A stretch of 64,000 nucleotides of DNA from Cafeteria roenbergensis (lineage: Eukaryota; Sar; Bigyra; Bicosoecida; Cafeteriaceae), in assembly GCA_008330645.1 (NCBI GenBank), contig VLTN01000081.1, positions 1-64,000 on the forward strand, in the 5' to 3' direction. Position 1 is the first letter of the stretch. Each line of letters starts with the position of its first letter. Under the pieces are notes generated by a model, which was not told the DNA's origin, did no database searches, and worked only from the letters and a program-made list of their open reading frames with translations. The position numbers and the translations under genes were made by a program. Of this stretch, positions 1,925-59,467 are shown piece by piece.

Positions 1925-2232
1925 TCCGGCTGCTTCGTTGCCAGCCAGGTCGGCGTGTTCGGCTTGCAGTAGTGTGGCGCGGCGCCGTCGGCGAGAGTGC
2001 CGACAAGCAACCAAACGAGCGATGGTACACCGTTTCGCGCCCGGCCTTGCACCACAAGGCTTGCGAGGGTGTTGCACAGCGGCGGCAGCCTGCGCCGGGC
2101 TCTGCAACTGCAGAGCAACACCCGCAGTTCAAAACTGCACGCTGCGACACCAGCGCGCCGCCCCCCCCCTCCCCGGGCGCCAGCGCGTCGGCCCAGGCGC
2201 GTGGGACCTGCACTCAAAGGGCCCAGTCGCTC
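1925..2232. other. intergenic, no gene seen
   Basis: Gap between two same-strand genes. The frame of the downstream gene happens to be open through here, but its first in-frame ATG is at 2233 and the upstream translation is basic low-complexity sequence. A short C-run lies at about 2161-2169. No promoter motif was recognised. Confidence 0.5.
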
Positions 2233-23770: not shown

Positions 23771-23804
<34 letters not shown>

Positions 23805-35800: not shown

Positions 35801-35842
35801 GTGTCTGTTGCCGTGGGGATGGGCGCCGGGCCGAGGCGCTGA
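22101..35842 (+). CDS. giant low-complexity protein of about 4,433 residues, function unknown
   Basis: Two small exons (22101-22160, 22363-22449) and one 13,155-bp exon (22688-35842) join in phase 0. The small exons encode MSDVQLAAIDAVLCFPGLVA and EVLDAIEGIESGVTPSGFAA..., continuing into RLLAPDQAAACVVDSRAAA, a compact helical N-terminus. Most of the rest is Ser/Pro/Ala/Gly/Arg-rich and predicted disordered, with a poly-Ser run near 23774. One ordered-looking island lies at about 25850-26560: a basic helix of Arg/Ala/Glu, then LLVQLVTAFAGFGDHHPW, EGQFVKLGLEAGLTGYGG, AAIWKMHSFGVKLQRRSMLR and ALVSLAAKRY, followed at about 26870 by DLAVRVMVLRHLLPLGMRMG. Later islands are FRIHIGETGVTIDGLGGSG and GRTHIRFGAGGLCEI. 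I recognise no family. The larger open frame beginning at 22505 is an artefact of reading through the second intron. Confidence 0.7.
22657..22680 (+). repeat. (TGCC)6 microsatellite immediately before a splice acceptor
   Basis: Six TGCC units followed directly by TGCGCAG, whose AG (22686-22687) is the acceptor for the 13-kb exon of the giant gene. The repeat occupies the place of the polypyrimidine tract. Confidence 0.93.
23774..23803 (+). repeat. (AGC)n trinucleotide repeat encoding poly-Ser
   Basis: About ten AGC codons in frame within the giant protein gene, flanked by Gly/Arg and Gly/Leu codons. Confidence 0.9.
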
Positions 35843-38536: not shown

Positions 38537-41500
38537 TCACGACAGCCCGAGCGCGCCCAATGCTGCCATGGTGGCGCCGCCCCGCGCAGGCGCTGCGGCT
38601 GCTGCCGACGCCGCGGCCGCCCGCTCCGCCCCGTCCTTTTCGTCCTCCTCCTCCTTCCCTGGCGACGGCTTGCGCGCCGTCTGGGACACCCACTTCTGCA
38701 GCTCTGCGGCGGGGTCCTTGGTCAGCTGCGGCGTGCCCAGTGCGACGGTCTGCTCGCACATTGGGCAGGACGGGTTCTCCTCCACCATCCTGCCAAGGTG
38801 CGAGAAGAGGGCTGGCCAGTTGCAGCGGGGGCAGGAGGACCAGTCGTCGAGGACCATGTGCCGGCCGGTGACCACGCAGCGCGGCAGATGGGTCTTGCAG
38901 CTGGGGCACTCGGACTCCCAGGCGCCGAGGGCGAAGGAGCACACGGGGCAGGGGGAGGTCTCCTGGTCCTTTTCAGTCTTGCCTGGGCGCCGAACGAGCG
39001 CCTCGATGTTGCGGCGCAGCTTGCCGTCGATCTTCTCCCGGTGCTCGTCGTCCATGAGCACGCGGGCAAACTCCGTGGCGCTGCGCTTCAGCCCCGCGCG
39101 GTGGCACTCCACCACCGTCATGGTCAGCACTGCGGTGGCGTTGAACGCGAAGCGGCTGAGGTCGTCCACGCAGCGCAGCAGCAGACGTGCCGCGCCCTCG
39201 TGGTCGCCCGACTTGACGAGCCGCCGCGCGAGCACGTACGAGTGGAGCAGCTCGAGCGATCCGACAAGCGCTGAGGGCACGCGGACGTCCTTGGCTGCGA
39301 GGGCAAGAGCGAGGCACTCGGAGGGGAGCTTGGATTGGCGGGCTGCGCGGACCGCAGCGTGCTGCGGAGACGACAGCGGCAGCAGCGACGCTGGCAGCTG
39401 CATTGGCAGAGCTGCCGCTCTTCTCACCCATCAGCTCGCGGTGCATCTCGAAGAGGACGCCGTGCGCCACGCGGTAGTTTCCGGCGATGCGCTGGTTGTC
39501 GGCGATGACGATGGCCGCCTTGGCCGCCTGCTCGAAGTTGTCGAGAGCCATGTAGAGCTTGAAAATGTACTGGGGGTCCTTTGGCACGCCGTCCGCATCG
39601 CCAGTGAGGTGGTCGATGAGCGAGTTGACCAGCTGCTCGTTGCGGCTGCGGCCCACGACGTCCACTGCCTCGTCGAGGCACTTGTCCTCGTTGACGGGCT
39701 GCGGTCGAGCGGGGGGATGGAGATTCGGGGAGATTCGCGAGGGGGGCGTTCGGGGGACAGCCGCAGCGCGCGTTGCCAGACCGGCGGAGCTGGCGCAGCT
39801 GGGGGGGGGGGGGGTGCTTGGTGAGGCGGGGAGGGGGGAGGGGGAAAAGAGCAATGCTGCAATTAAACTTGCGTCCGGAGGCAGCTGCGCCGGCGAGACT
39901 CACGTCCAGGAAGTGGTTGAGGGCACGGTGGTAGTGGGCAGCCTTGGCGTAGAACTTGCCGGCGGTCGCCTTGTCGCCCTGCTCCTCGAAGTAGCGCGCG
40001 ATGCGCAGGAACTCCTCATCGGGAACCTCGCCGCCCATTGCTGCGGTGGTGGTGGTGGTGGTGGTGGTTGTTGCGGTCAAGGGGTCGAAAAGGGCTGGCA
40101 ATTGCAGGCGGTGGCGCGCGGGGGTCGGATGGGGGGCAGTCTGGACGCCAAAGGACGGGCCTGGGCCGCCCATCGCGCTGGCAACAGCAAGTGCGCTGGC
40201 AGCAGCGACCACGGACAAGTGCGCAACAGGGACACGAATTGGGCACCTTTCCGACTCGCAAACGAGCCACTCTCACCTGCTGCGATGACCTCCGTGTAGA
40301 CATCCATGGCGCCGCTGGAGACGGCGATGTCAAAGGCATCGTCGGGCCTGCCCGCCAGCAGGAGGAACTCCACGGCGCCCCGGGTGTTGTCGGACTCCTG
40401 GAAGTAGGCCGCCACCATGGTGGCCGCGGCTGTGGAGCGGGTCTTCCGCGTGAGCTCGGCTGCGTCGTCCGGCCTGTCCATCTTTTCAAGGTAGATGCGG
40501 ACGACGTCGTCCAGCGAGCGAGCTCGCTTGAAGGCCTCCACGGCCTCCCCGTACCGGCCCTGCTGCTCGCGGGCCTTGGCGAAGGCGACAAGCAGCCGCG
40601 GGCTGGTGACCTTGGGCATGATCTCGGCTGCCTTGTCGAACTCGCGAGAGAGGATGAGGATGCTGGCGGCGTGCTCCCAATCGGCCGCCTTGATGTAGAG
40701 CTCCGCCGCCTCGGGGGCCTGCTTGAGGCCCTCCAGGATGGCTGCGCACTCGCGCGCAAGCGCAGCATCGCCCTCCCTGGCAAGCTCCAGGCCGCGCCGC
40801 AGGCTCCCCGTCTTGAGGAGGGTGCGGGCGAGGCCGGCCTTGACCCTGACGTGCAGCTTGCCGACGCGGCTCGTGGGCTCGGCCCCGGGAAGGGTGTCGT
40901 CGGGGGGCAGGTCCCGCTCCGCCTCCTCGTACGTGGCGAGGGCCTTGTCGGCCTCGCCCTTCACCTCGAGCTGCTTGGCGCACTCGATCGAGATGCCGCC
41001 CACCTCGGTCGGCGCAATGGCGCGAGCGAGACGCAGCGCGCTGTCCCACTGCAGGAGGTCGCGCCGCAACTGGAGGGCCTCGCCTGGCGATGACGAGCGG
41101 AGGAACTCTTCCTCCGCCCTGTCATAGTCGGCAAACATAACCGCCATGTGGCCAGCAAGGGCGTGGACGTCCTCCACGTCAGCCACCGCCTCCAGGCTCA
41201 TCACCATGCCCGCGTCGCCGAGAGCTCGGTACACCCTGATGGCGATGGCAGGCTGGAGGTCAGTCTTGGCCCGGTTGGCAAGCGCCAGCAGCAAGGGGCG
41301 GCTCCGCACCCTCGAGGCCAACTCCCACCCAGCCTGCAGGCGGCCGAGCTGGATGGCCTGCTTGCACGCCTCCGCTGTCCCCTCGATCGTCGACAGGGAC
41401 GCCTTCTCCAGCCGCGTGTGGGTGTGCACGCGAGTGCGCGTGACCGCCCCGGCGTTGCTCCGGCTGAGGAGGACACCGTCCGTGAGGGCGACTGCAGTGT

Positions 41501-44500
41501 TGCCGGGGGGGATGTCCGTGTCGACAGGCTCGATGGAGAGCTCCCCAGCTGGGACGAGCAAGCGGGCGGGAGAGAAGGAATCGGGAGCAAAGGGCGGGGG
41601 TCGGCGGAGAAGGTGCCAAGCGGCAGGGGCGGGGCCGCATGGGCAGAGCGACGCTCGAGGAGCGAGCCGCAACGCACGCTGGCGGGCGAAGGGGCCACGA
41701 GCGGGCCCGCGCAAGCGGCGGGGCGAAGGACTGAGGCGAGGCGGCTCCAGGACTCGGCAGGGCGGACACACTCACATGCGCCGACGCTCGGCTCGCCGAG
41801 GCGCTCCGTGGTGGGGCCGTAGACGGTGTGAGCGCGGTGGAGGAAGATGCGGAGGGAGGAGGCGCTGGCCATGGCGAATAGGCCCCAGTCGGCGGGGTCC
41901 CACAGCACAGCAGCGGGCGGCTCGATGGCGTCGGCGATGCGCATGGTCAGGTTGTCGACTGGGTTGAACAACCAGCTGCGGTTCGCCGCGTCGACGACGA
42001 TGACGCGGGTGCCCGCCTGGTTGGGGTAGACGCGGCGCACGGAGCAGGCACCGCCCGCTCCCCCCGCCGCTGCGCTGCCACCGGCCTGAGGGTGAACGAA
42101 GCGGGCTCCGTCGAGCCGCCGCCCAGTCTGCGAGGGCGAGAGAGACGATGCGGGTCCACCAAGCGCGCTGAGGAGGACGGCGCGGTACGGCAAGCCGAGG
42201 CGGGAGGCGAGCCTGCGCGCGCGACTGCAGCATGGACCACGCGCCTTGCAAAGCCCTGCAGAGCAAGGCGCTCGGGCTGTGCGCTCGGCGCCAGTGAGCA
42301 GCGCGCAGCGCGCGGAACAGGAGGCTGGCTCACCGGCGAGTGCCAGAAGTGCACGGACCCGTCCTCGGTGCCCCACAGCACCAGCTCTCCCACCGCGGTC
42401 ACGCAGGTCGCGGGGCTGTCTCCTTCGTTGAGAGGGTGAGGGGCGTCGGCCGCAGCGTCGCCCCCGCTGGATGGCTCGATTGCATGCGCCAGCACCGTGC
42501 CTCCGCACAGGGCGACGCAGTGGGAGGGGCCGAGAGCTGCCTCGCGGACCTCTGAGAGGTACTCTCGCTTCGCCACGGGCGGGCCGGCGGTGCCGTCGGC
42601 GGTGACCCGCAAGCGGTAAAACCAAGCCCGGTCGTTGATGGCTGCCATGATGTGGGTGGGGCCCAGTGCGAGCAACTTCGGCTCCACCTCGAGCGGGACG
42701 CGCAGGCGTGCGTCCTCTGCGGCCGTGTCCGTCACGGAGACCTCGCGGAGAGAGGAAAGCGTGGCGAAACTGCAGGCGAGGCGCGGAAACACGGCGGGGG
42801 CGGGGCAGCACGGCAGGTGAGGGCGACGTCAACGAGGAAGGACCTGCGGCCAGCTCCGAGACGGCAGACTGAGAAACGGCCTCTTTCACGAGGCGCCCGC
42901 GCTCGGAGGTTGCAAGTATGGAGTGTGCCGCAGAAGCACTGGGGGCGGGGGCAGGGCAGCTGGGAGTTGCACGCCCTGGTGCGGGCCAAAGCACCACCCG
43001 CTCACCGGTTGCCGTTGGCGACCCCGAGGGTTGGCAGGTCGCCCAACAGGGTCACGAGGTCGCCCGAGCTCGACGCCGCCGTGAGGATCTGGCCGTCGCG
43101 CGTCCACTGGAGGGCCTCCACGGTTCCCATGTGTGCCTCCAGCCTGAGGGCCACCCGGTCCTGCGGCGCAAGGTCGGAGCAAAGCGACGGGAGGGCGAGG
43201 GCGAGGGCGAGCCGGCGACTCCGGTGGGCTCTGGCCGGGAGCGACGAGGCCGTGAGTGTTGGGCGGCGAGGCGTGGCCGCGAAGCAAGCGGGCGCGCGGG
43301 GCAGCCGAGCAAAACGCGGCTAGCTCCAGCAAGCCTGAGCCGGCAGCGCGAGCGGGCCACACGCTCAGCCGCCTGCGCCGTTGCGGGCTGCCGGCCCTCC
43401 CGAAGCGGAGAGCTCAGCGAGCGACCACGCGTCGCCGACGCAGCCGCCGCCACAACCTGCAGCACGGGCTTCACTCACAGGCGGCGCCTTGCGGCTGGAC
43501 AGCGCCGAGGATAGGTCAAGAATGCGCACGGTGTTGCCCCCGGCCACGGCGAGGTGGAGGAGGCGCTCGGACACAGCCATCGCCGTGGCCGCCTCTCGCT
43601 GCAGAGGCACCGTGAAGATCTCGGTCCCCAGCTCCTTCCTGTGGGTCGAGATGACCGTGACGAATCCGCGCTGGAAGCCGACGGCGAGGTACCCGTCGCC
43701 GAACCATGCGAACCGCTCGATCTGGCCGTACTTCTCCTGGAAGGTGAGCTCGAAGGGCTTGTCGTCGTGCTCGGCGGTCTCGAGGAGCAGGAGGGATCGG
43801 CCTCCCATGTTGACCGTGAGGGTCGAGGGGCTCCGGCCGGCCGAAGGGGAATCGGTCTTCTGCCGGGCAAAGCAGATCTGCCTGGCCTCAGCCGTGAGGT
43901 CCGTTGCAACGATGGTGTCGCCCTCAGAGGTGGAGAGAGTGACGACGGCGTCGTCGCCTCCCATGGCCAGCCGGCCGGACATTGACCACGCCGCGGAGAG
44001 AATGGCGCCCGTGTGCTTGCCCACCAGCGGGATTGTGCGCCGGACCGCCATGTTGTAGAGGAGGAGGTTGCCGGCCCCGTCGCCAGCGGCCAAGATGGGG
44101 CTGTCCTGTGCCCAGGAGATGACTTGCGGCTCTCCCACGGCCGAGTTGGACACGCTACTCAGGGTTCGCGTGGCGAGCTCGAAAACGCTGATTTTGGCTA
44201 CGCCGTGCTGGCACACGGCGATGGCCTGCAGGTGACGCGCAGGGCGGAAGGGGAGACGCACCATGACAAGCACCGGCGCAACGGTGTGAGTCGCAGCCCC
44301 GCAGCAAGGACGCGGCACGCTGGGGCGGCAATGCTCGACCCGTTCGATTCGCCGCTCACCGTTCCGTCGTGGGACCACGCGACTTGTTTGCAAGCGCCGC
44401 GCATTTCCAGCGATGTCTCGTGGACGCGGGCCCCATTCCGGTCATGCACGAGGAGCTGGCCTGCGGGCGCGCGCGCTCGCCGCGAGTGTGGGCAGGCGCA

Positions 44501-44810
44501 GCAAGGAATGCAGTCAGGGAGGGCAATTGTCAGCCCCGCCCGACCACCGCATGGCAGGGCAGGCGATGCAGCCCTGGCGAGCTCGCCCGTCGAGCCAGGC
44601 CAGCTTGGCGACAACGGCGGCGAGGGAGGCGCGGGAGGGCCGCTTCGCGAGGCGGGGCTCCGCTCTCGGTTGAGCACTCGCCCGTTGCTTGCGCGGGTGC
44701 CGCTCACCATTCGCGCCACAGGACGCCAGAAACGTCCCTCGCTGGTTCCACTCGAACCGCACACGGCCTGCGCCGTGGACGCGCTCCTGGATGTGGAACA
44801 GGACCTTCAT
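38537..44810 (-). CDS. IFT144: intraflagellar transport protein IFT144 (WDR19)
   Basis: Core subunit of the IFT-A complex, which drives retrograde transport in cilia and entry of membrane cargo. Ten exons: 44810-44708, 44460-44360, 44225-43479, 43160-43006, 42769-42334, 42127-41776, 41548-40277, 40040-39904, 39698-39428 and 39342-38537, giving 1,459 residues with every phase consistent. Residues about 1-630 form two WD40 propellers; family-specific stretches include FQEKYGQIERFAWFGDGYLA, GFVTVISTHRKELGTEIF and MAAINDRAWFY. Residues about 650-1300 are TPR-like helical repeats (AIRVYRALGDAGMVMSLEAV, GKFYAKAAHYHRALNHFLD, YIFKLYMALDNFEQAAKAAI). The C-terminus holds the zinc-binding cysteine pairs CPVC, CPSC, CPRC and CPMC (about 1323-1387) with TGRHMVLDDW, diagnostic of WDR19. 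It is slightly longer than the human protein (1,342 residues). Its 5' end faces the MORN-repeat gene. Confidence 0.96.
39801..39814. repeat. G14 homopolymer (poly-C on the coding strand) in an IFT144 intron
   Basis: Fourteen consecutive G on the plus strand within the 39903-39699 intron of IFT144; C-rich on the transcript. Confidence 0.9.
40045..40068. repeat. (GGT)8 microsatellite, reads (ACC)8 upstream of an IFT144 acceptor
   Basis: Eight GGT units on the plus strand. On the coding strand these are ACC units ending in GCAG at the acceptor of exon 8 (exon begins at 40040), so the repeat doubles as the pyrimidine-rich tract. Confidence 0.93.
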
Positions 44811-45845
44811 GGCCCCTGGAGCCCCCGCGCGCCGAGCGCGCTTGTGGTTCATCGGGCGGTTGCTTTGCCCTCGGCGCATATATTTGACACCCTGCGAATA
44901 AGGAAACCCGATCGCCGGGACACTTTTGCTGGCTGAGCGTTGAGAGCGGCCTTTGGCTCACACTGCTTGATGGCACTGTGTGCATGCGCTGCTGTTCCTG
45001 CGGACCTTTTGCATCCGTCTCCACATCAGCTCCGCCGAGGGCGTGACTCTCGAGAGGACGGAGATACCAAGGGCCTGTTTGCCGAGCAGAGGGGTGTAGG
45101 AGGCTTGCGTAGAGGGACTGCCTCGAGTGCTGGCATGTTGCGCCAACAACAGCGGTTCGGCTGGGTCTTTTGTGACAGCCACTCAATGCAGCATGAGCTT
45201 TCTGGCATGGGATGCAAGCAATACCAGGAGTCGAAACTGGAGTTTCGTGTGCAGTCGCCTCCGATTGGAAGCGTGTCGAATTCGTTCGCATCCCTGCAGT
45301 GGAGGAATCTGCATGGGACCACGAGCAATTCACAAGCTCCTCACCGAGGGCCTTACTCAGCACGAGTGCAGATGCTGCCCGCTCGGCATGGGAGGCAGCA
45401 GCGCTGGCCCCCATTGGCTCTCGATGCCATTCGCTGTCGCGGCATCAAGCCCCTTGACACCGCTTTGCGCATCAATGCGCTTGCCATCACCGAGCGCTAA
45501 GCATCCTTGAATTTCGACATGTCGATGCTTTGCCGGCGCTTGCGCCACCAGAGTCAGGGGCGCACAGCACGCTCCTGTGCTCCGCCGGTCGGACAACTTC
45601 CTGAGCACCGCGCCTGCATCGCCCCAGTTCGCCGCAATGCCCGCGATTGCGAGCACGATGCTTACAGCCTCGGCGTCGTCGGAGCCCTTGGCCGTGGTCC
45701 CGGCGGCAGATTGCAACTGATCGAGGTTGCATATTGGCCGCGCCGCCCAGGATGTGGCTCTGCCGCCGGCGGTCAACGGCCCGCCGCGGCCTCAGGGCCC
45801 ATGCGCCCCCACTGCGGCCCTCAGGCGCAGGCAACGGGGCGCCTG
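44811..45845. promoter_or_regulatory. 1-kb divergent, lower-GC intergenic region between IFT144 and the MORN gene
   Basis: Both flanking genes are transcribed outward. The stretch from about 44,875 to 45,780 is visibly less GC-rich than the rest of the window (roughly 55-60% in several lines). Open frames on both strands (for example 44940-45500 and 45357-45776) have irregular composition, no recognisable motifs and no matching splice context, so I do not call them genes. ATATATTT at 44878-44885 lies 68-75 bp upstream of the IFT144 ATG and reads AAATATAT on its strand, a TATA-like element. Confidence 0.5.
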
Positions 45846-48800
45846 ATGGACCGAATCCACCCATTCGTGCGCATTCCCGGGGGTGCGCCGTATTCGGACT
45901 ACAACACCGACCGCGGCGTGGCCGAGCAGATCACTGCCGAGGCATGCCGGCTGCTCGTGGCAGACCACGACTGCGGCCTGGACGAGGAGCAGAGGTGAGG
46001 CTGTCAGGGCCTGTCGCGCGCTGTTACCATCCGTGCGCGCCGTTTGTGGCGGGGTGGGGCGAGCGAGGGGTTGTGACGTCGGAGTGTGTGCTCCGGTCAT
46101 CGAGCCAATTGCGGCGGGCTCCGCTTCTAGCCCCCGCGCCACCCAGCCTGGCCCCAAGCTCATGACCTTGGCTCGCGCAGGTTCCACGGCACCGGTCGCA
46201 TCGAGTACGAGAGCGGGCTGGTGTATGAGGGCGACCTCGCCCACGGCCGCGCCACCGGCCGAGGCAAGCTGTTTTGGCCATCCGGCGAGGCGTACGAGGG
46301 CACGGTGCGCAATGGCAGGGCCTGGGGCGAGGGGCGCATGGAGTGGCCCAACGGGACCACGTACGAGGGGTCGATGCTTGACGGCAAGCGCCACGGCTTC
46401 GGGGTCCTGGTGGCCGCGTCTGGGGTTCGCTACGAGGGCGAGTGGGCGGGAGGCAAGCGTGAGGGCCGGGGCCGGCTTGTGTACGGCGTGGCCGTGGGGC
46501 CGGATGGTCAGCGCGTGGTTAACGAGTACGTGGGCCAGTTCAGAGCGGACAGGCGGCACGGCGTCGGCACGCTTCGGTACGCGTCAGGGTCCGTGTACGA
46601 GGGGGAGTGGCGCGACGACCGCAAGGCGGGGCAGGGGGTGATGGTGTGGCCGGCGTCTGGCCAGGTGTACAAGGGGGGGTGGGCAGACGACCAGCCCGAC
46701 GGGCAGGGCGTCAGCGTGTGGGAGAGGACGCGGCCGCAGGCCGCCGACGAGCACAGCGCCGATGCTAGCCGCCGTCCAATGTGCACGCGGTACGAGGGCG
46801 GCTTCCGGGGAGGAGCGCGCCACGGCGTGGGGACCCTCTACTACGCTGACGGCGCCAAGTACACCGGCACGTGGCGGGAGGGGCTCAAGGAGGGTTTGGG
46901 CGTGATGGTGTCGGCCGACGGCGCGGTGTACGAGGGCGTGTTCGAGGCGGACAGGCCGCGTGACGGCCCGCAGCGCCGGTCGGACGCGCCGCCTTCGCCG
47001 CGCACGACGGAGCGTCAGACGGCGTACTCCCTCCACGTGGATGACGTCATCACTGGGGCCCTGCCGTCGGTCAAGGCGCGCGGGGCTGGGTCGCTGGCAG
47101 GGCCGGCAGGCGCGGCGCTAGCAGGGCTGTCTGCAGCCAGGGCAGTGGGCGGTGCAGTGCTTGCCGGCGGGGGGGTTGTCGGAGGGCGAGGGCTCGCGCT
47201 GGCCACTCGGCGCGACGCCACTGCCACGCAGAACGTGCTGTCGCGGTGGCTGCCGCTCCTGCGCCGGTGGTACGACGCGGCCTGCGTCGAGGGATCCACT
47301 GCGATGGGCGGGCCCCTTGAGATCTCAGACGGCGAGGGAAAGCCCGTAAGGGTGGTGATGGAGGCTGGATCGTCGGTCGACGCCGACGGGACGGGCGCTG
47401 CAGCGAGCGAGCAGGGCCGTGCTGACGGCCGCAGCGAGGTGCCCGGGCTCGCCCTGCGAACGCTGGCAACGCTGGGCGAGATTGACAACGAGGAGGAGGA
47501 GGAGGAGGACGAGGACGAGGAGGATGATGATGATGATGAGGAGGGCAAGGATGGCGACGATGACGACTCGGCCGCCAGCGGGCAACGCGGCCAGGACGGG
47601 CTGGTTGCCAGCAAGGGGTCCGTTGCGTCAGGCGCTGCCGCGCAGCGGTCGCGGGCAAGCCTCGAGGCCGCCGGCCATGCCGTGGAGGGCAAGGAGGCCG
47701 ACGAGCGGCAGGGCAAGGAAGGGGAGTTCGAGCAGGAGGACGGGGAGGCGGCAGGGGGGCGGAGCGGTACCAGCGGTCGCGCTGTCGGCGAGGCCGGCTC
47801 CGATGCGGGTTCTCGGCCCAGTCTGCGGATCGACGGGGCGTTGTCTCGGCAGAGCGAGGGCTCAGCGCCAGCTGGCGAGCAGGGCGACGCGCCCCGGGGC
47901 CCGGAGGACGGCGCCGGCGGACAGCCTGGCCGGCAGCCCGGCTCTGCGCGCAGCGAGGGCATGAGCCTGACCGGCCGGCAGGCTGCCATGGCGGTGGCCC
48001 CCATGCACGCGCACAGGCTGGCGGCCATGGGGGCGAGCGACGCGCTTCGCTCGGCGGGGGCGGACCCCGTGGCGGTCGCCAGTGCTGGCGTGTTCGCAAT
48101 GCCCCAGCGCGGGCTGTGGCGCGTTGCCAGGGCCATGGGGCTGCTGCGCCCCCCAGTCACCACTGCCGTCGTGGACAGGGTGCTGCTGCTCGTGAGAGCC
48201 CGCCACGTGAGGCGAGCCCTCGCCGGCTTGGAGACGACCCGAGAGCGCGAGATGCCGTCGTCGGCGTCGTCGTCGCCGCAGGCTGGGCCTCGCTCGGCGA
48301 TGGCGGGCGAGGGCGGTCTCGGGCTCGACCCAGCGCGCAAGAGCGTGTCAGTCGGCCTCCTCCCGTCCCCTGCGGCTCACTCGTCCTCCAGGTCGGGCAT
48401 GTCAGCAACCGCGGGAGCAACCGCGGCGGACGGCAGCTTCGCGGAGCCGCAATCGCCTTGCTCGCCTGCGCCTGCCATGCTGGAGCCGCTCAGCGACGCG
48501 GAGTTCGCGCAACTCCGCGCGCGCATCGCCGCTCCGCTTGCTGGCCCGAGGCACGACCCGGCTCGCCCGGTGCTGTTCCGGGAGTTTTTGGAGGTCGTGG
48601 TGCGGCTCTGCCGCATCCTTTACTCGGGAGGACGGCGCCCCCCGACGGACCCGGCAGCGCTTGAGGCGGCTGCCCAGCACAGGCAGGAGGAGGCCGCTGC
48701 GCTCACGGCCCAGCAGAGCCTGGCGACGACGTTCGTCCAAGGTGGCGGCGGGTTTGCGCCTTCGTCGGGCCCGGCGTCGCCCATGGTGTCGGGCAGCGTT

Positions 48801-51128
48801 TCGGTGGCGGGGCCGCCAGTGAGCCCGGCGGCGGGCGGGCCAGGGCCCACGGGGGCGGCCTCCGTCCGCTCGGCCAGGCAAGCTGGTCTCGCGAGCGGCC
48901 GGCGTGCTTCGGCGCGAGACGCCGGGAGGGGGACCACGACGGGGCGCGCTGCAGCCACTGCCGCTGCCAGCGGTCATGGCGCAGCGGCAGGCTCGGCGAG
49001 AGGCCAGGGGACTGCGCGGCGAGGCGGCCAGCCGAGCGCCCGGGCCCCGGGGACCAGCCGGCCGCACTCGGTGGCCGCCAGCGCCCGATCCGCTGGCGGG
49101 CGGACGGCAGGCGGGCGGCGGGCCGGCGGCGGCAGCAGCAGCTCTGCTGATGGCGATGCCGTCACGGTTGCCGCGGCGCAGCGCGTGCCGCCCCGTCCCA
49201 GCAGGGCGGTTCCCGCCTCCTCCCTCGCCTTCGCGGTCGACTGCGCCCTCTGGTACATGGCCGTGCCGGCAGCGGCGCAGCTTGGGGTGGCGGCTCTTCC
49301 CGGAGGCAGAATGCCCGGGCTCCTGGCCGCGGGCAGCCCCACCCGCCACAGCCCCTCGCAAGGCGCCGGCTCGGGAGCCCCCACCCCCTTCGGCCCCCCG
49401 TCCGTCGCCGCGTGGGGGGAGCCCACTCCGGCCGCCTCCCCTGCGGGCTCCGGCGGCATGTCGTCCCTGCAGCCGGGCAAGGGACGCGTGCCGTCGCTCA
49501 GGTCCTTCGACCAGCACCTGGCCTGGGACATGGCCTCAGGGGGCCTGCGCTCCCTCCTCTTCCGGCCGGACGCCCTCGCCGGCCTAGACGCGCTTGCGCC
49601 CGCTTTGCGCGTTCTCTTCCTCCGCTACTCGGTGCCGGACGACGGGCCTGCCATGGTGCCGACGTCCGTAGACCCGGGCGCGCTCGCGGACATGGTGGCG
49701 GGCGAGGAGGGGTCCTCCGGCGCGCTGTCTGGCACGCTCGCGGCCGCGCGCAAGAGCGTGCACGGGCGGGTGGTCAACGGACACGGCCTCCTCCGGATGG
49801 TGAGGGACGCTGGTCTCTTCGCAGACGACTTCGGGGCGGAGCAGGTGGCCGTGCTGATGCGCCGCTCGCTCTTCGACCTCTCAGGGGCGTCTGGGAGGGC
49901 CGACTTGGGGGCCACCTGCGGTGGGCTCGCGACGGGCCAGGTCACGACAGGCGTCGTTGCACCGAGGCGGGAGGTGGCCGAGGCAGAGGCGGCCGCCGAG
50001 GAGGAGGACGACAATGTGGCCATTGCCGACTGCGGGCTGGTGCTCGTTCCCGACGAGGAGGAGGACGGCGTGGAGGGGGCGGCAGCGGCGGAGGCATCAG
50101 AGGCCGGGCCGCTCGGGCGGGCCGGATCAGGGGACGAGGAAGCCGGCTTGGGTGCAGGCGCCGCAGGCAAGGGGGCGGCGAAGCAGGCAGCAGCTGCAAG
50201 CAAGCGCCCCGGTGCAGGTGCCGGCGCGGGCGTGGGTGCCGGCGCGGGTGAAGCCGCCCCTCGCGCAAAGGCGTCCGGCGCAGATGCCAAGGCCGGCCCA
50301 CGCGGCCCCGCCCCGCGAACTGATTCGGAGGGATCGTCGCGTGGCTCTGCCACGGCCCGGTCCGCGGCGTCCAGCAGCAAGGCATCGGCGGCAACGTCGG
50401 CGGCAACACGCCCTGACCAGCGCCAGCGAAAGCCTGCCAAGGCCCGAACGCCGATCGGCCCCGGCCTCCCAGACCTTGGTGCGGAGGCCACAGCCGCGGA
50501 CTGGCCGCTGATCCTGGCTCGGCTGATGCTGGCTCTGCTGCGCCTTGCTCCGCGCCGCGCCGCCAGGGCAGTGGCCCATGAGCGCAGGTGGGCCGAGGCG
50601 AAGCGCGAGCTCGAGGAGGCTGCGCAGGCCAAGGCCCAGGCCGCGGCCCAGGCTGCCGCCGAGGCCGCGGCTGCCAACAAGAAAGCTAAGAAGAAGCCTG
50701 CCAAGAAGGGCGCGCCGGCAGAGCCGGAGCCCGTCTTCGAGGCCGAGCCGGTCACGGCGGCGCAGATCGAGGCCGTGGTCGGTCCCCCGCCCAGCCCCCC
50801 GCTGCTCATGCCCGGGGCGTCGGCGCCCGCCTCTGCGCGGGAGGTGCGCGACTGCGGCGCGGCTCCGGGCCGCACACCGGTCGCTCTGGGCCGCGGCGCC
50901 CCGCTCGCGGACAAGCTTCAGGTGTTCCTTTCCACGGTGCTGCTGAGGAGGCTCGCGGTGCCCGGCTTCACAGAGGCGTTTGCTCGCGCCGACCCCTTGA
51001 GCGAGGCCGGGAGCGGGGGGAGGCTCTCTGCTCGCCGCAGCAGCCGCAGCCCACGCACTGGCCTGTCCGCCGCAGAAGCGGCAGCTGCATCCGCGGCGGC
51101 AGCAATGGAAGTCGCCAAGCTGCGGTGA
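45846..51128 (+). CDS. MORN-repeat protein, radial-spoke RSPH10B-like
   Basis: Exons 45846-45994 and 46181-51128 join as codon AG|G and give 1,698 residues; an alternative upstream ATG is at 45801. Residues about 55-300 contain some nine MORN repeats of the form YEGxxxxGxxxGxGxxxxxxG (LVYEGDLAHGRATGRGKLFW, EAYEGTVRNGRAWGEGRMEW, SVYEGEWRDDRKAGQGVMVW, AKYTGTWREGLKEGLGVMVS). MORN repeats bind membranes or scaffold proteins; in the radial spoke head this architecture is RSPH10B. The rest alternates disordered Glu/Asp-, Gly/Ser- and Ala/Lys-rich linkers with short ordered helices (VLSRWLPLLRRWYDAACVEG, LFREFLEVVVRLCRILYSGG, KLQVFLSTVLLRRLAVPGFT). The ciliary neighbourhood supports an axonemal role. 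MORN identity is certain; RSPH10B orthology is tentative because the protein is about twice as long. Confidence 0.85.
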
Positions 51129-51508
51129 GGCAGCGCGCTGCCGTCCTGGGCAGCGGCGTCCAGAGGCGCTTCGGCCGGCGCCCGGCCATGCCTCGCGTGC
51201 AGTGCGGCACAGGCCGGACACCGGGAATCTGTGCTCGAGCGACTGTGGGGCGGGGCTTTGTTCGCGCAAGCGGGTGGCCTCCCAGCATCCCGAGGGAGAG
51301 GCGCCCGATTTTGACAATGCGATGCCTGGTTGCTTCACGGGGCGCGGATGGCTCGAGGATGAACAGTCACAAACAACACGCACCGTTGGCCGCAGCTGCA
51401 CCAGAGCAGTCTCTGGCGATGCATCCACGCACAGTCGCGCACGAATCACACGCACGCCCTGCCACGCTGGCAGCTCTGCTTGCGCGCGTGGCAGAGCAGC
51501 CCGCCCGC
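51129..51508. other. convergent 3' intergenic region
   Basis: 380 bp between the MORN gene (+) and BBS5 (-). Somewhat lower GC around 51,300-51,440. No feature recognised. Confidence 0.5.
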
Positions 51509-53619
51509 TCAGGCGCTCCAAAGCTTGCCGATGTCGTAGCCGGGGGGGAGCGCTTCCACGGCCAGTCCCAACTCCGGGTCAAAGACGGGCTCCCTGTCCG
51601 CCGCCTTGGACGCGTCAGCTAGGTAGGCCGCCATTGTGTCGCTGGTCTCGGCAGAGTCGACGATCTCCACGTCGTCAGCCCGGCGCTCCAGCGGCGCGGA
51701 CTGCGTGGAGGTCGGGGCGTCCTCCACAGTGTGCTTCACGCCGAGGACGGGGTCGGCCAGGAACACCTTCCACAGCGACGAGACCTCCTTGCAAGCCGCC
51801 TCGCGCCTGCAGACAAGGCGAGGACAAGAGCAGGGCTGGGAGCGGCTCAGGCCACGCGCATGCGCCGGGGGCTGGGCGCTGGTGCTGCTGGCTGCACAGC
51901 TGCTCGCAGGCACTGCCGCTAGCACGGGCGTTGCCAGCCAGCTCACGCGGCGGCAAGGCCGGGCAGGGCTGCGGCTGCTGCCGCGGCTGCTGCCTGGACC
52001 GGCGACAACGTTGCCATGCGCTGGCCATGCGCTGGCCAGCCGCTGGCAGGCTCACCTCTCATCGGGCTCGATCTTGAAGCCCAGGACGTATCCTCCAGCG
52101 CGCGGCACCGTCTCCACGACGAGGGCTTGGCCGAACTTGGAGGCGCGCACGTGAACCTTGGAGATCTGGATCCAAGGGATCGAGACGTTGAAGTTCTCGG
52201 CCAGCGACGCGTGCCACACCTGCGCCGACGGGAGAGGCGGTGGTTGCGGGGGGCTCGCAGCGGTGGTTGCGGAGGGCTCGCAGCGGTGGTTGCGGAGGGC
52301 TCGCAGCGGTGGTTGCGGAGGGCTCGCAGCGGTGGTTGCGGAGGGCTCGCAGCGTTGGTTGCGGAGGGCTCGCAGCGGTGGTTGCGGAGGGCTCGCAGCG
52401 GTGGTTGCGGAGGGCTCGCAGCGTTGGTTGCGGAGGGCTCGCAGCGGTGGTTGCGGAGGGCTCGCAGCGGTGGTTGCGGAGGGCTCGCAGCGGTGGTTGC
52501 GGAGGGCTCGCAGCGTTGGTTGCGGAGGGCTCGCAGCGGTGGTTGCGGAGGGCTCGCAGCGGTGGTTGCGGAGGGCTCGCAGCGGTGGTTGCGGAGGGCT
52601 CGCAGCGGTGGGCGGCTCCGCGCAGGGGCGAATGCGAACGTTGGAAGGATGCACTCGCGGCCGAGCCGCCCGCCGGATATCAGGCGGCAAGCCGCGCCTG
52701 CCGGCGAAGCAGCGGCCACGGGAGCGCGTCGGCAAGGGCAGGGGCGCGGGGCGCGTCTCACCATGCGAATGTTGGTCAGGTAGAGGACCCCCAGGTTGCC
52801 CTGGTCGCTGGAGAGGTTCATCACGCCGTCGAGGCGGTTGAACACCTCCTCGTCGGGCAGCTGCCGCAGGAGGCCGTCACGGACGATGGCGCCGCGCAGC
52901 TTCAAGTCGCGGTACAGCTTTGATGTCTCGTACGCGCTGCGCAGCGGAGCAGGGTCGAGGAGAGGGGAGGGCAAGGCGTAGGGCGGGGAGCGTGCCTCGG
53001 CCTGGCCCGGCGCAGCATTGTCGCTCCATCAACGGCGCGGCCAGGAGGAGGACGAAGGGCCCGTCGGGTGCGCCGACGACACTCACCGGAACACGGCCTG
53101 CACGGTCGTGAAAAGCCTGGGGCTGCCTTCGACCAGGGACGTGAAGATGAACTCGTAGCGCGCCTCGTCGAACTTGGTCATAAGATACAGCGCCTGGGCG
53201 CGAGCCCGCAGGATGCTGGGCGCCGAGCGAATGGTGATGGTCTGGATGCACGAGTAACCCACGGAAAGGTTGGTCTTGAAGGACTTGTGGGAGATCCAGA
53301 CCATGCGCAAGTTTGTGATGAGCAGCGTGCCTCGAGTGCCGTTGTTCCCCTTAGTGTCCTCGACTGAGTTCATCCGGTCGATCACGAACTCGCCCTTTCG
53401 GCACATGACCGCTCTGCGAGCAGATGCCGGGGCGGGAGCCCGCACAAAGCGGCGGTGGTGGAGGCGCTGGGGGGGGGCGCGGGGGGAAGCCAGCAGCGGC
53501 CCGACGCCGGCCAACGCCCGCAAGCGCGCCGCTGCTCACTGCGCCGGAAGGAACAGGCGAATCTCCTTGTCTTGCCACACCTGGCCGCTGGACGGGCCAG
53601 ACGCGTCGGCAGCGGCCAT
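51509..53619 (-). CDS. BBS5: Bardet-Biedl syndrome 5 protein, BBSome subunit
   Basis: Subunit of the BBSome, the coat-like adaptor that carries membrane proteins in and out of cilia; BBS5 binds phosphoinositides through two PH-like domains. Exons 53619-53540, 53413-53087, 52936-52762, 52219-52056 and 51806-51509 give 347 residues (human protein 341). Family sequence runs throughout: DRMNSVEDTKGNNGTRGTLL, TNLRMVWISHKSFKTNLSVG, YEFIFTSLVEGSPRLFT and, across a junction, RAYETSKLYRDLKLRGAI. It continues with DGVMNLSSDQGNLGVLYLTN, then after intron 3 VWHASLAENFNVSIPWIQI, SKFGQALVVET, YVLGFKIEPDE and the C-terminal DREPVFDPELGLAVEALPPG. All introns begin GTGAG and all phases agree. Intron 3 (52761-52220) holds a 16-copy minisatellite. 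The gene is head-to-head with WDR60 at 135 bp. Confidence 0.97.
52237..52604. repeat. minisatellite of sixteen 23-bp units in BBS5 intron 3
   Basis: Sixteen contiguous 23-bp units of the form GCGGTGGTTGCGGAGGGCTC plus GCA. Units 6, 9 and 13 share one G-to-T change (GCGTTGG), and the first unit has a GGGGGG variant. There are no spacers. Because 23 is not a multiple of three and the unit lacks stops, all six frames stay open through it, producing meaningless open frames. Confidence 0.97.
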
Positions 53620-53754
53620 GGCGGCTGCGGCCTGCGACTGTGCTGCGCGTTGAGGCGGCCAGCCGCGTTCCTTGGGCGTTGTTATACATTCGCTGCTCTG
53701 GCAGCGGTTGCCGGACCCGCACCCGGCCGCCTGCCCGTCGCAGAGGCCGAGCCA
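53620..53754. promoter_or_regulatory. 135-bp bidirectional promoter of BBS5 and WDR60
   Basis: Only 135 bp separate the two start codons, so both transcripts must start within it or inside each other's leaders. GTTGTTATACATTCG near 53690 is the only AT-rich patch and lies about 65 bp before the WDR60 ATG. No X-box or other ciliary factor site could be confirmed by eye. Confidence 0.6.
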
Positions 53755-56700
53755 TGTCGGGCGCTCCCAGGCGCGTTCGGCGCGTCAAACAGGCAGCCGC
53801 GCCAGCGAGCGGCCGCACGTCGAGCCGGAGCCGTGCGCCCGTGCGGGCGTCGGCTGCAACGGCGGCTTACGGCGCTGCTCCATCCGCTGCCGCTCCCGCG
53901 GCCCGAAGGCGGCCTGTCCGCGCGACGGGCGCCGAGCGTGGCCCCAGCCCGAGCATCCCGAGTGGACAAGGCTCCGCTCCTGTGGTGACGCGGGCGGCGG
54001 CCCGCCCGGCTTCCGCTCGCAGAGACCGCCGATCAAGCTCGTGAGTCGGAGCGCCCGACGGCCACGGCCACGGCCTCCAGCACCCGCAACCGAGGCCGGG
54101 CTTGCATGCTGGGGCCGCTTCGTCCCTCCCGCCTCCCCCCCTCCCCCCCCCCCCCCCCCCCCCCCCCCCCAGCCCAGCCCCGTTGGCCGGCCGGGTTTGC
54201 GCCGGTTCCATCGGCCAGCGCGTCCGCGTCGGCGCGACCACGCCCCGCTCAGCTCGCCCGCTCGACGCACATCGCTCCCCGGCCCCATCCTCGCGCGCCG
54301 CAGGGCAATGTTCGAAGACGCCGTCAAGCCGGAGCCAGCGCCCGCCGCTGGCCCGCCCGCCGCCGCCTCCCGCCGCAGCGAGCACAACCAAGCTTCCCGC
54401 CGCCCCGCCCGCGCTCCAGCTGCCCAGCCAGCGGCTCACCGACGGGAGACGTCTTCCCACAGCTCTGCAGCCGACGACGGGTACGGCGACGACTCGTTCG
54501 AGGACTACGAGGACGAGTTCGAGGACGATCCGGACCAGGGTGGCGGCTCGCCGCAGCAGCCCACGCCAGGCCCAGCGGGTGCTTCGCCGTCCGATGCCGC
54601 TGTGGGCAGGAGCCCGGAGGAGCAGCGGGCGAGCAGGGCGGAGCTGGACGCGCTTGTGGCCTCTCGCCGGACACACGGCCGCGGCTCACCTCCCTCAATT
54701 GGCGGCAACGCGGCCGAGACGGCCGCCCCCTCCTCCTCCTCCTCCTCCTCCTCGGCAGCCGCGGCAGCCGCGGCGGCGGCATACTCTGCGCGACCTGTTC
54801 CGCAGCGAGCGATCCCCGGCGGCGCCCGCGCCTTTGACCACGCGGCTGCGATGGACGAGGCTGTGTTCGCGGACCAGGAGAGGCGACGACGTCCTCTGGT
54901 GGCCGTGGTGGCCTCCCCGGCCGCGGCAGGGCCCGGGAGCGGCGGAGATGGCGGCCCGACAGTGTCGCTCGGCCGGGACGACCCTGCGCGCGCCCGAATC
55001 GCCGGCCTTCACAGGAGGGGAGTCCGCCTGGAGTCAGAGTCAGCCACGGTGGTGTCACGGCGGAAAGTAACGCCGGAGGACCGCCACACCGAGCGGTTGC
55101 TCCGGGGACTGGTGAGGCAGCGCGGCCTGCAGACCGGGGACCCCGTGTCGGCCTCGTGTCAGACGGAGGCCGCCGACACAGCTGAGCAGGCGGCTCAGTT
55201 CCCGGAGGATCTGGCGTTTGCTGCGGCGCTCAGAGCCAAGGCCAGGCGTCTCAAGGACGAGGACGGCGGCGGCAGCGGCAGCGGCAGCGGCAGCGGCGGT
55301 CAGGCCTCGACGCCCTCGGCAGAGGACGAACCAGGGGCACAGAGCGGAGCGGGGGGGGCGGGGGGCAGAGGCACGTCTGTGGCCCGCTTGCTCGCCGACG
55401 AGTCCGAGCGGCTGTCTGCGTTTCTTGCCAGGGTCGTGGGCACCATGGAGGCGGTGCTCGACGAGGCGGCGGAGGAGCAGGCGGGCTGGGGGGCGGCAGC
55501 GCGGGGCACGGCAGGCCCTCTGGCTGAGCTGGTGGCGCCATCGTCCGAAGGCGCGGCAGCGGGAGGCGGTGGGCGCCGCGGCGGGGCGAGGGCTCCTGCG
55601 CGGGCGGTTGTCGTGTCGATGACGGAGGGGGCGCGGCTGCTGAGGGGGCGCGCGGCAGTTGCAGCGGCGTTCGCGCCAACCAACAGCCACGCGGTCGTGG
55701 CCTTCGGGCCCGCCCCCGAGGCTTGGCTCGACGGCGCGGAGGCCGCGGTGGCCGCCGCCATGGGCCGGGCGGACCCCAAGCTCCTGGCCCTGGCGACGTC
55801 AGCTGCCATGCGCCGGCTCGACGCAGCGCGGGACGGCGCCATCGCAGTCTTCTCGGCTCACGACATGCGCTCGGGTGCCCCGGCGGCGGTGCTCGCGTGC
55901 CCTGGGGAGATCACGGCGGTGAGCGCCTCTCGACCGCGCGGCTCAGTGGTCGTGGCGGGCACAGCTCACGGCAGCGTGGTAGTCTGGGATACGCGCCGGC
56001 GGGACGCGTCGCAAGCCCCTCCTGGCTGCCCGCTCGTTGCTCTGGGCGCGGCAACGGGCCTACCGTGCCCGCTGCGCCTCCCGGACGCCACCACCGACGT
56101 CACCGTGGACCCCTTCGTCGCCCCCGAGTCGTCTTGGGGGCGGAGCGACGCCGCCATCGTGGAGCGGGCGATGCGAGGCGCCGGCGCTGGCGGCGCGGCA
56201 CGGGACGCGGCCCAGGCAGCACTCGGCACCCACGCTCGCTTCCCGGGGCACCGGGCCCCTGTGGTCGAGATTGCCTGCGCCGGCCGCGACTCTGCCGGCG
56301 CCTCCGCCTCCGCGGCGGCGCCGGCCTCCTCCACGGGGTCGACAGTCCAGGTCACGAGCCTCGACGCGACTGGCGTGCTCATCGCGTGGACCCTCGTAGC
56401 GGCAGAGGGCGGCGGCCTGAGGCTGGTGTGGTCCACCGCGACGGACACGTGCTCCGCGCTGCCGCGCCCCTTGCAGCTTTACTCGGACTTTGCGGGATTG
56501 TCCGGCGGAGGCTTCCCGCTCATCGGGCCCGACGGCGCGCCGATGGGGAACAAGGCCTCGCTCGGCGACGTCGCGCTGGCGTCCTCCACCCCGCTCTCCA
56601 TGTGGGAGGTGGGGGAGCGCGTCACGGCGGTCTGTTTCGCCGAGGACGACGAGGTCCTGGTGGGCACCGTGGACGGCGCCGTGGCTCGCGCCAGCAGGTT

Positions 56701-57466
56701 CGGGCAGCAGGGGGACGCCGCCGCTGGGTCGTCGCTCAAGCAGCCGACGTCAAACGCCCTCAGCGGGGCCGCATGGCTTCAGAGGCCCACCTCGCTTGGG
56801 GGCGCCACGCCGGACGAAGAGTCCAAGGCGGCGATCGCGCCGCGGCTCTTCCCGAACGTGCCCTCGGCCGTGACGGCCCTGGCCGCATCTCCCTTCGTGC
56901 CGGGCGCTGCTGTGGTGGGCTACGCCGACGGCAGCCTGCGCCTCTTCGGGGCTGGGTCCTCCTACCCGTTGCGCGCGTGGGGCGACGCTGCGCCGGCAGG
57001 GCACGCGGTGTGCTCTGCCGTCTGGTCGCCCACAAGGGCTGCCGTGTTCTTCACGCTGGACACAGCTGGCGTGCTGCGCGGGTGGGACCTTGCAGCGCTG
57101 CCGTCGCGGCCGGCCGCCGCCGCGTCGGTGCTCCGGGAGGCGGGCATCAAGGGCAAGGGCGGGTCGGGCGTCGCGGGGCTGTTCAAGGCGGCAGGAGCCG
57201 ACGATGGCAGCTCTGGGCTGCCGAGGGGCCACGCCAGGGCGAGGCCTTGTCTGAGGGTGAACGGCGCGGCAGGCAGCCCAGCCGCGCGCCCGAGCCTGCT
57301 TGCGACCCTGCCCGACGGCCGGGGGGCAGTGGTTGTTCCGCTCGCGAGGCGGTGGTGGGACCCGGCAAGCGCCGCGGTGGATCCTTCCGCCGAGGCCCAT
57401 GCCGCGGGCGCCGCCGAGACTCGCTGGGCTGGGGACATGTTCGCGAGTGCGCCGGGGCTGGCCTGA
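53755..57466 (+). CDS. WDR60: cytoplasmic dynein-2 intermediate chain 1 (WDR60/DYNC2I1)
   Basis: Intermediate chain of the retrograde intraflagellar transport motor. Exons 53755-54041 and 54304-57466 give 1,149 residues (human 1,066); the join TC|G is in phase. The Arg/Ala/Ser-rich N-terminus is followed by the acidic motif DDSFEDYEDEFEDD (about residues 158-171) typical of WDR60. The C-terminal half is a WD40 propeller: VLACPGEITAVSA, VVVAGTAHGSVVVWDTR, VTSLDATGVLIAWTLV, EVLVGTVDGAVARAS, AAVVGYADGSLRLFG and SAVWSPTRAAVFFTLD followed by TAGVLRGWDL match the family block by block. The poly-C-bearing intron (54042-54303) is 262 bp. Other open frames in the N-terminal exon are shadows. WDR60 pairs with WDR34 and dynein-2 heavy chain, which are not in this window. 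Confidence 0.92.
54143..54170 (+). repeat. C28 homopolymer in WDR60 intron
   Basis: Preceded by C7 and a single T, inside the intron about 135 bp before its acceptor. Exact length is uncertain, as for any long homopolymer. Confidence 0.88.
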
Positions 57467-57651: not shown

Positions 57652-59467
57652 TCACACGCTGCGCGGAGAGGATTCGTCGCGCGAAGAACCCTCTCGCGGC
57701 GCGTGCGCCACCACCAGGTTGCCCATCTCATCAACGAACTCGCCGGGGCCCTTGGCGGCGCCGCCGCTGCCCCGCACGACGGGGGCGCCAAGGGGGCGCG
57801 CGGCAGTTGCGCCGTGGGGCAGGCGTGCCGCTGGCGCGCTCGCTGCAAAGCCTGCCGAAGCGGCCGACGTGGGGAGCAGCGAGTGCACCACAGTGGCAGA
57901 GCGGGCGCTCCAGGCCACCTCCGACCAACGCGAAACCGCCGGGCGGCCCAGCAGCCTGGCCAGCAGGAGCACCGCGGCCTTGGCCTCGGGAAGGTCGGCC
58001 GGGAAATAGAGCACGACGCCGCACTCTGCAAACGCCGCGCGGTGCTTCGCGGCTTGGGCCGCGGCCCCCACCGCGGCCGCGATGCCGGCCGCAGACGCTT
58101 CGCGGCGGAGCAGAGCTGGGAGGTCGAGCTTGGCCGCCATGTGCGCGGAGCACGCCGGGAAGGCGGCCAGAGGCAGAGGGCGCAGCCTGGCTACCTCAGC
58201 CACCAGCACCCTGAAGGCTCGGTCCCAAGCTTCAGCCGGCGGAACGCCGACTGGCTCGGCCGCTGCAGCGTCACCGGCACCAGCGCCAGCGCCAGGCGAC
58301 TGCCCCCCGGCCACCCGTTTGCCGTCCCACAGGGCAACCAGCTCGTCGACGCCGACTCCTCCTCCCGAGAGCGACGGCGAGCCGTCGCGAGCAAGCCGGG
58401 CCATGTCTGGGCGGGGGCCCGACACAGCGGCGTCCCACGGGAGCGGGAGGCCGACGAAGTACGCTGCTCCCACTCGTAGGTGGGAGGGGAACGCTGTTGG
58501 CCCGCTTCCCAGCGCCGCCCAGCTGTCGCCCGCACGGCCGCTGGCCTCTTCGGACCGCCGCGGTCCAGCAGCGCTGCTGGCAGCGTCGCCGCCTGTGTGC
58601 TGACGCCGGGGAGCCCGCCTGGCCGAAGACGCAAGGAGGTGCGCCGAGGAGCGCGTGGTCGTCAGCGTGAGCATACCAGAGGCCGGCATCGTGCCTGCTT
58701 GCATGTCCGCCTCGACCGCGCGAAGAACCCGCGCGTCAGCCGCCACGGGACGCGCGAAATCCACCACCGTGACGGAGGCGAGTCGCGCCGCTGCCTGCTC
58801 TGCGGCTTGGCCGGGCAGCAGGGGCCGGAGCAGCGGCGCCGGAAGCCTGCCCGAGTCTGCATCCTGGTCGGACGCAACTTGCCGCGCGCGGGCCAACCCT
58901 GTCACGCGCCACCAGAACGAACGCAAGGAGTCCGCCCAGGAGGCCGCCCCCGCCCCCGCCTCGCCGCCCTGCTTCCCCGGCGCGCGCGCAGCGCTTGGCG
59001 CCCTCACCACAGGGGGGGGAGGACGGTCGCCTTGGCCTGCGCCTGCGAACCCGGCCTCTCCGCCCCACACCGCCGACAGCGCTGCGAGCACCGGAGCCAC
59101 GCCAACGCTTGCAACTGCCGCCCCGACGCCAATCGCCGCCAGCGCAAACCCTGCCGCGAAGGCGAGAACCAGCAGCGGCGCTAGTGGAGGCTGCCCGAGC
59201 CGCCGCGGCTTCCGGTCGGCAGCCGCTGGGAGCGGCAGCTCGAAGCGCCGACGATGCGAGTCTTGCGAGCCTGCGCTGCCGTCCCGCGCAGCACCGTGAT
59301 CGCCGTCGGCATCATGGTCACATCCCACCGCAGAGGCAGCGTCGCTTCGCGCAGCGGCACCGTGCGCGGACTCGAGCGGAGGCGACCGCGCTGCGCGGCG
59401 CGACCTGAGTCCTGCCGCGCCGGCTGGGGCGCGCTCCTGCTGGAGGCCCGGCGACGCAGCGCCCCGG
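57652..59467 (-). CDS. probable membrane protein, 5' end unresolved
   Basis: The open frame extends upstream to 60054 but overlaps the neighbouring minus-strand gene, whose C-terminus looks genuine, so only the non-overlapping part is given. A 45-residue hydrophobic stretch (LVLAFAAGFALAAIGVGAAV, about 59,190-59,060) suggests one or two membrane segments. The downstream part looks like a soluble domain (ASVTVVDFARPVAADARVLR, HLRVGAAYFVGLPLPWD, GVVLYFPADLPEAKAAVLLL), ending DEMGNLVVAHAPREGSS. I recognise no family. No in-frame ATG lies between 59467 and the hydrophobic segment, so a start via an upstream exon, or fusion by splicing to the neighbouring frame, is likely. Confidence 0.5.

Follow-up and report, generated by a model that had tools for sequence, protein, structure and literature searches.

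A run of four ciliary genes in Cafeteria roenbergensis and a candidate X-box-like element in ciliary promoters

The closest described system for coordinating ciliary genes is the RFX/X-box regulon of animals and choanoflagellates (S. rosetta cRFXa), in which GTTGCC/GGCAAC stands upstream of ciliary genes, mostly as single half-sites; in choanoflagellate ciliary promoters the RFX monomer motif GTTGYCA is enriched, likewise as single half-sites (PMC10530576). A non-RFX route is the control of ciliogenesis by XAP5 in Chlamydomonas (cited in PMC12629598), and closely spaced divergent genes have been described as head-to-head pairs in Chromera and Vitrella (PMC4501334). Here, we analysed a window of 64 kb (positions 1 to 64,000, the whole stretch of DNA under study) of the 133-kb contig VLTN01000081.1 (C81; other contigs are labelled likewise) from Cafeteria roenbergensis, and searched the genome to which it belongs (167 contigs, 36,303,456 bases). 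Positions 38537-57466 of the window hold four consecutive genes, for three certain ciliary proteins and a probable one (MORN), in two divergent pairs, IFT144 (-), a MORN-repeat gene (+), BBS5 (-) and WDR60 (+), and both divergent spacers contain the word RGCAACSG, which includes the RFX X-box half-site GGCAAC.

As in the RFX/X-box regulon, GTTGCC/GGCAAC is found here upstream of ciliary genes, mostly as single half-sites, with one perfect palindrome, at IFT56. The differences are that the host is probably a stramenopile and has no RFX DNA-binding domain above threshold, that the flanking preference is RGCAACSG instead of GTTGYCA, and that the element is here a candidate binding site. With the XAP5 route, this genome shares a single XAP5 match (C40:272900, E 1.9e-43). 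The target motif of XAP5 differs from RGCAACSG. Like the Chromera and Vitrella genes, the pairs reported here are closely spaced and divergent; unlike those, they have two ciliary partners in three cases (probably so for the MORN gene). The new point would be a candidate ciliary promoter element common to clustered and unclustered genes, for which the statistics, drawn from 20 promoters, are modest; we recognised no report of such clusters or motifs for stramenopiles in the titles and opening abstracts of the open-licence PMC literature.

Gene models were built with a purpose-written splice-aware gene finder, two splice junctions being corrected by hand (Table 1), and the outer limits of the run are the stop-codon ends of the IFT144 and WDR60 genes. 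The run itself is confirmed: the gene names, order and divergent layout given in a preliminary description of the window all proved correct in gene models and in PDB and Pfam searches, and three of the genes are secure by family, as had been stated. IFT144 matches human WDR19 colinearly over query residues 1-1379 (PDB, E 4.4e-255), and both Pfam WDR19 propellers are above cut-off (E 1.2e-95 and 6.8e-39), with the Zf_IFT144 match falling under its family cut-off. BBS5 is a full-length family match (Pfam BBL5, E 1.8e-132, covering 1-333 of 334; PDB BBS5, E 1.1e-116). For WDR60, the top of 15 PDB matches is dynein-2 WDR60 (E 1.5e-16) and the runner-up is dynein-1 intermediate chain 2 (0.0016), which places the C-terminal propeller nearer to WDR60 than to the other dynein intermediate chains; in the PDB WDR60 alignment there is also a weak match of the acidic FEDYED stretch. 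The MORN gene and BBS5 converge with 380 bp between them, and the gaps to the outer flanking genes measure 247 and 185 bp. None of the best-scoring coding pieces falls into the intervals separating the four genes (no homology search was run on the 1035-bp spacer). Most of the 542-bp intron 3 of BBS5 is occupied by a tandem array (window 52237-52611) in which a 23-base G-rich unit is repeated 16.3 times with 98% matching.

For the MORN gene, the designation RSPH10B-like fits best, and its N-terminal MORN repeats make it a putative orthologue. The top of 28 PDB matches is Chlamydomonas FAP266 (E 8.9e-49, MORN repeats only), with MORN1 second (6.3e-28), and Pfam MORN is found in 7 stretches (E 3.9e-44). 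The likeness to FAP266/RSPH10B consists of MORN repeats over ~273 residues, and the difference of ~1,400 more residues outside the repeats, for which there was no significant PDB match; the protein has a long low-complexity C-terminal part. MORN matches occur on ten further contigs of the genome. Since FAP266/RSPH10B has been placed in the central apparatus C2c-d (PMC7999657), the product is probably part of the central apparatus, hence axonemal, as had been proposed, and outside retrograde transport; the accompanying claim that the four proteins work in the same retrograde transport machine holds for three genes at most and not for this one.

Transport genes were also sought irrespective of position, yielding six WD40-TPR IFT proteins including IFT144 (IFT122 under the family cut-off), two BBS1-like genes and BBS9, together with IFT20, 38, 46, 52, 54, 56, 57, 70 and 81, BBS2, 4, 7 and 8, and DYNC2LI1, which were located with chimeric queries. 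The names within IFT families and those of the chimeric-query matches are presumptive, taken from the matching query part and from human sequences. The two BBS1-like genes (C72:16.6-18.6k and C37:98.6-100.8k) are both over the Pfam cut-off, and IFT56-like matches were obtained twice, at C32:15.9-18.2k and, near a contig end, at C56:236.2-237.6k.

The X-box/half-site is modestly enriched upstream of ciliary genes. Counts refer to the 300 bp upstream of the ATG unless stated, with curated ciliary starts, and were compared by Fisher test. RGCAACSG is present in 8/8 discovery promoters (IFT144, the MORN gene, BBS5/WDR60, IFT172/SSNA1, IFT121, CCDC40 and the two BBS1-like genes), and in five of the 12 held-out promoters (BBS9, IFT140, IFT81, IFT52 and IFT70) against 4/56 controls (p=0.0065). 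The part-patterns [AG]GCAACCG and GGCAACGG preceded the union RGCAACSG, and BBS9, IFT140, IFT80 and IFT122 were exposed to them before it; the cleanest test is that of the eight last-fetched promoters, for which the pattern was already fixed (3/8 vs. 4/56 controls, p=0.036; within 200 bp, 3/8 vs. 3/57, p=0.021; within 400 bp, 5/8 vs. 7/56, p=0.0042). The BBS8 piece starts within exon 1 and was excluded before counting. Taken together, 13 of the 20 ciliary promoters and 4/56 controls carry RGCAACSG, the best separation of all variants; GGCAACCG alone was tried as the motif and found weaker (held-out 2/12 vs. 1/56, p=0.078, earlier starts).

Density follows the same direction, with 3.45 sites per kb upstream of ciliary genes (13 sites in 3.8 kb, discovery included), as against 0.39 in the remaining non-coding DNA and 0.19 within coding regions; held-out upstream regions have 6 sites in 3.6 kb, where 1.41 would be expected from the other non-coding rate (p=0.0033). 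In the whole window there are 15 sites, several within coding sequence. Moreover, in unbiased word lists GTTGCC/GGCAAC is second of 1,263 6-mers (13/20 vs. 13/56, p=0.0011) and GCAACGG first of 2,604 7-mers (9/20 vs. 3/56, p=1.6e-4), neither being significant after Bonferroni correction. Upstream of IFT56 there is a perfect palindromic X-box, GTTGCCTCGGCAAC, at -336, i.e., beyond 300 bp; these same 14 bases recur on C56, at a distance of ~1.2 kb from where the second copy was matched, and once more on C17. Perfect X-boxes (spacer 0-3) number 27 in the genome, as compared with 14 for the reversed control. At C18 ~183k, what may be a membrane protein is encoded, as judged by eye, in an open frame divergent from IFT70, with RGCAACSG in the spacer.

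We tentatively favor, as a plausible account, a dispersed ciliary regulon acting via RGCAACSG and read by one factor, to which clustering would be secondary. The locus comprises two back-to-back gene pairs, and in this compact genome of a flagellate each pair is probably transcribed from a single intergenic region common to its two genes; in the BBS5/WDR60 pair, the spacer is likely one shared promoter. Because each spacer carries RGCAACSG, co-regulation is probable, and the four genes would probably be co-expressed through this word, whose GGCAAC core is the RFX half-site in animals and choanoflagellates. The presence of the same element upstream of several ciliary genes elsewhere suggests co-regulation through dispersed promoter sites by one factor, presumably not a recognisable RFX protein, and adjacency may mostly reflect chance, together with a mild trend toward proximity among ciliary genes. 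We infer that the motif is bound and drives ciliary expression; gene identities, layout, positions and enrichment counts were directly observed. The earlier suggestion of a co-regulated cluster gains some support from a motif common to unclustered ciliary genes, and none from the clustering itself.

Several results weigh against a dispersed regulon of this kind. The pattern originated by eye, from GGCAAC-type words noticed in eight upstream regions, and seven of the 12 held-out promoters are without it (IFT80, IFT122, IFT57, IFT38, IFT56, IFT54 and IFT20, the last a member of the second cluster described below). The top 6-mer is a different word, CAGACC, and no motif word is first among 5-mers. 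The 56 control starts were automated and several are probably wrong, the same model having misplaced several ciliary starts; versus 31 better-defined controls, of which 3 carry RGCAACSG, the held-out comparison gives only p=0.028. A genome search for the RFX DNA-binding domain (PF02257) returned none above the cut-off of 27 (best, 26.1 bits), and a chytrid possessing RFX is reported to have no enriched ciliary motif (PMC10530576). Furthermore, closeness was simulated with the genome as one line, contig ends ignored and the second IFT56-like copy (C56) excluded. The 25 transport genes then show 3 gaps <=11 kb vs. 0.18 expected (p=0.0006), but without the three genes of the cluster that triggered the analysis, the 22 remaining IFT/BBS/dynein-2 genes show one (0.14 expected, p=0.13), and the values for 1 gap <=6 kb (p=0.073) and 2 gaps <=25 kb (p=0.038) are weak.

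Regarding the factor that reads the motif, the PF02257 search gave seven sub-threshold matches, including C69:161.0k and C94:61.8k, these two near-identical, the other five forming two equal-score sets. From composition and resemblance, we take the C69 and C94 matches for mobile or viral replication-gene sequence. RFX was rejected as the reader, the matches being only sub-threshold, while a strongly diverged RFX may exist. Because the RFX factor was sought and not found, we describe the element as working like an X-box regulon, if it works as proposed, and do not class it as an RFX regulon. In this context, RFX has been described as not found outside opisthokonts, nor in brown algae (PMC12629598), it is said to be missing in the majority of unicellular eukaryotes with cilia (PMC2873420), and many other ciliated eukaryotes reportedly have neither RFX nor FoxJ1 (PMC10530576); XAP5 is the sole candidate named for ciliary control by the brown algal authors (PMC12629598).

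That the four genes are neighbors by chance is a distinct possibility: where several hundred of ~8,500 genes are ciliary, four in a row would not be very rare and would call for no special co-regulation. Human cilium genes number 386 in one study based on phylogenetic profiling (PMC10425847), and 8,483 proteins are given for C. roenbergensis strain BVI (PMC6972860). In a model of 8,483 genes with assumed ciliary fractions, runs of >=4 ciliary genes are expected 0.023, 0.050 and 0.19 times per genome at 4.1%, 5% and 7% ciliary, and 3-of-4 windows of an assumed 40-gene transport core 0.0036 times; the locus was picked by a reader, and the search over many windows and pathways lies outside these figures. 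The expected number of runs can be counted toward chance, as can the location of most other placed transport genes on separate contigs and the rest of C81, where Pfam matches were found in 20/30 scanned pieces, none ciliary, and 10/30 had no match. An expected frequency under random order that is not low had been named beforehand as refuting a co-regulated cluster; the figures above are below one run per genome, with the post hoc choice of window ignored. Both divergent spacers carry RGCAACSG, which speaks against pure chance, though both belong to the discovery set. So do two observations made elsewhere in the genome, namely the IFT20 and IFT81 genes, 5 kb apart on C59, and the ciliary genes among the immediate neighbors of other IFT/BBS genes.

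These neighbors were surveyed in 20 kb around eight IFT/BBS genes (16 immediate neighbors, 10/16 searched and six judged by eye). Ciliary genes account for at least three of the 16 (p 0.011-0.097 when 3-7% of all genes are taken as ciliary). SSNA1 (PDB E 1.1e-4) and IFT172 are divergent, their ATGs lying 198 bp apart; CCDC40 (PDB E 7.1e-103) and IFT122 are convergent; and CFAP65 (Pfam E 8.4e-22, PDB E 5.5e-11) lies upstream of IFT121. Non-ciliary neighbors are found at IFT140 (EBP-like), IFT80 (enoyl-CoA hydratase) and BBS1a (NPC1). A general strong clustering of ciliary genes is unsupported, since of the 25 placed genes the close ones are the trio of this locus, IFT20/IFT81 and BBS2/DYNC2LI1, the last 22 kb apart. 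Ciliary genes seem to have a mild tendency to sit together, and the four-gene cluster is real and possibly due to chance. The second cluster (C59:135.8-142.0k) contains IFT20, MORN matches (at least one gene) and IFT81 in this order, all on the + strand. Dynein heavy chain matches were seen in 19 places; those at C5:466k (+) and 486k (-), ~18 kb apart and facing each other, are possibly adjacent genes.

It is somewhat unlikely that RGCAACSG is a general promoter or MYB-type element, its enrichment coming from a different factor or from promoter composition. CAACSG fits an R2R3-MYB site, RFX was not found, and the shorter CAAC[CG]G is raised as well (16/20 vs. 16/56, p=8.2e-5), as is RHCAACSG, which lacks the X-box G (6/20 vs. 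4/56, p=0.017); GGCAAC alone occurs in 13/56 control promoters. However, RGCAACSG separates ciliary from control promoters best, the X-box at IFT56 is a perfect palindrome, and the bases preceding CAAC do matter, because neither YGCAACSG (2/20 vs. 4/56) nor YNCAACSG (3/20 vs. 11/56) is raised. A selected co-expression domain, in which adjacency itself would matter via shared chromatin or bidirectional promoters balancing subunit dosage, is improbable, for although the 134-bp BBS5/WDR60 and 198-bp SSNA1/IFT172 spacers are short enough for one promoter, most placed IFT/BBS genes are unclustered, the neighbors of IFT140, IFT80 and BBS1a are non-ciliary, and head-to-head pairs, common in compact genomes, have been interpreted as a stabilising arrangement and not as a co-regulating one (PMC4501334).

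Table 1. Coordinates of the four-gene locus, its RGCAACSG sites and its flanking genes (window positions).
Feature	Position	Strand	Details
IFT144/WDR19, IFT-A subunit	44810-38537	-	10 exons, 1447 aa
IFT144 exons	44810-44708, 44460-44360, 44225-43479, 43160-43006, 42769-42334, 42085-41776, 41548-40277, 40094-39904, 39698-39428, 39294-38537	-	gene model
MORN-repeat gene, FAP266/RSPH10B-like (best call)	45846-51128	+	2 exons (45846-45994, 46181-51128), 1698 aa
BBS5, BBSome subunit	53619-51509	-	5 exons (53619-53540, 53413-53087, 52936-52762, 52219-52056, 51806-51509), 347 aa
WDR60/DYNC2I1, dynein-2 intermediate chain	53754-57466	+	2 exons (53754-54040, 54304-57466), 1149 aa
Divergent spacer, IFT144 ATG to MORN gene ATG	44811-45845		1035 bp
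Divergent spacer, BBS5 ATG to WDR60 ATG	53620-53753		134 bp
RGCAACSG site AGCAACCG	44857-44864	-	54 bp upstream of IFT144 ATG
RGCAACSG site GGCAACGG	45830-45837	+	16 bp upstream of MORN gene ATG; could be in 5' untranslated region
RGCAACSG site GGCAACCG	53705-53712	-	BBS5/WDR60 spacer
Left flank, argininosuccinate synthase, non-ciliary	36112-38289	+	PDB E 3e-91, last exon; introns approximate
Right flank, protein without assigned family, possibly more than one gene	57652-61192	-	gene model

On the right flank, no Pfam family was found in the two pieces searched and no PDB match to E 0.1 for 57655-59439, the sole part searched; beyond it lie an ERG4/ERG24-type sterol reductase and then a ubiquitin-conjugating enzyme. 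To the left, a stop-free frame of 4,453 codons (window 22481-35842, +) encodes a low-complexity protein and may be a single giant gene; the 2,116 codons that were searched (22652-29000) matched no Pfam family. A 2,097-codon coiled-coil-like protein with internal repeats and no Pfam family is encoded at window 2221-8511 (+).

With a defined 8-base element and a list of promoters that carry it, in an organism that probably has published genomes, the coordination of ciliary genes in protists outside opisthokonts becomes testable. We consider it doubtful, at present, that a stramenopile without a recognisable RFX controls its ciliary genes via an X-box-like half-site, read either by a strongly diverged RFX-like protein or by an unrelated convergent factor. 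If true with a diverged RFX-like reader, the X-box ciliary code would be far older than the line of animals and choanoflagellates; if true with an unrelated factor, there would have been convergence on the same DNA word. The element is relevant to the history of X-box control, be it a single origin with choanozoans, an older one, or convergence.

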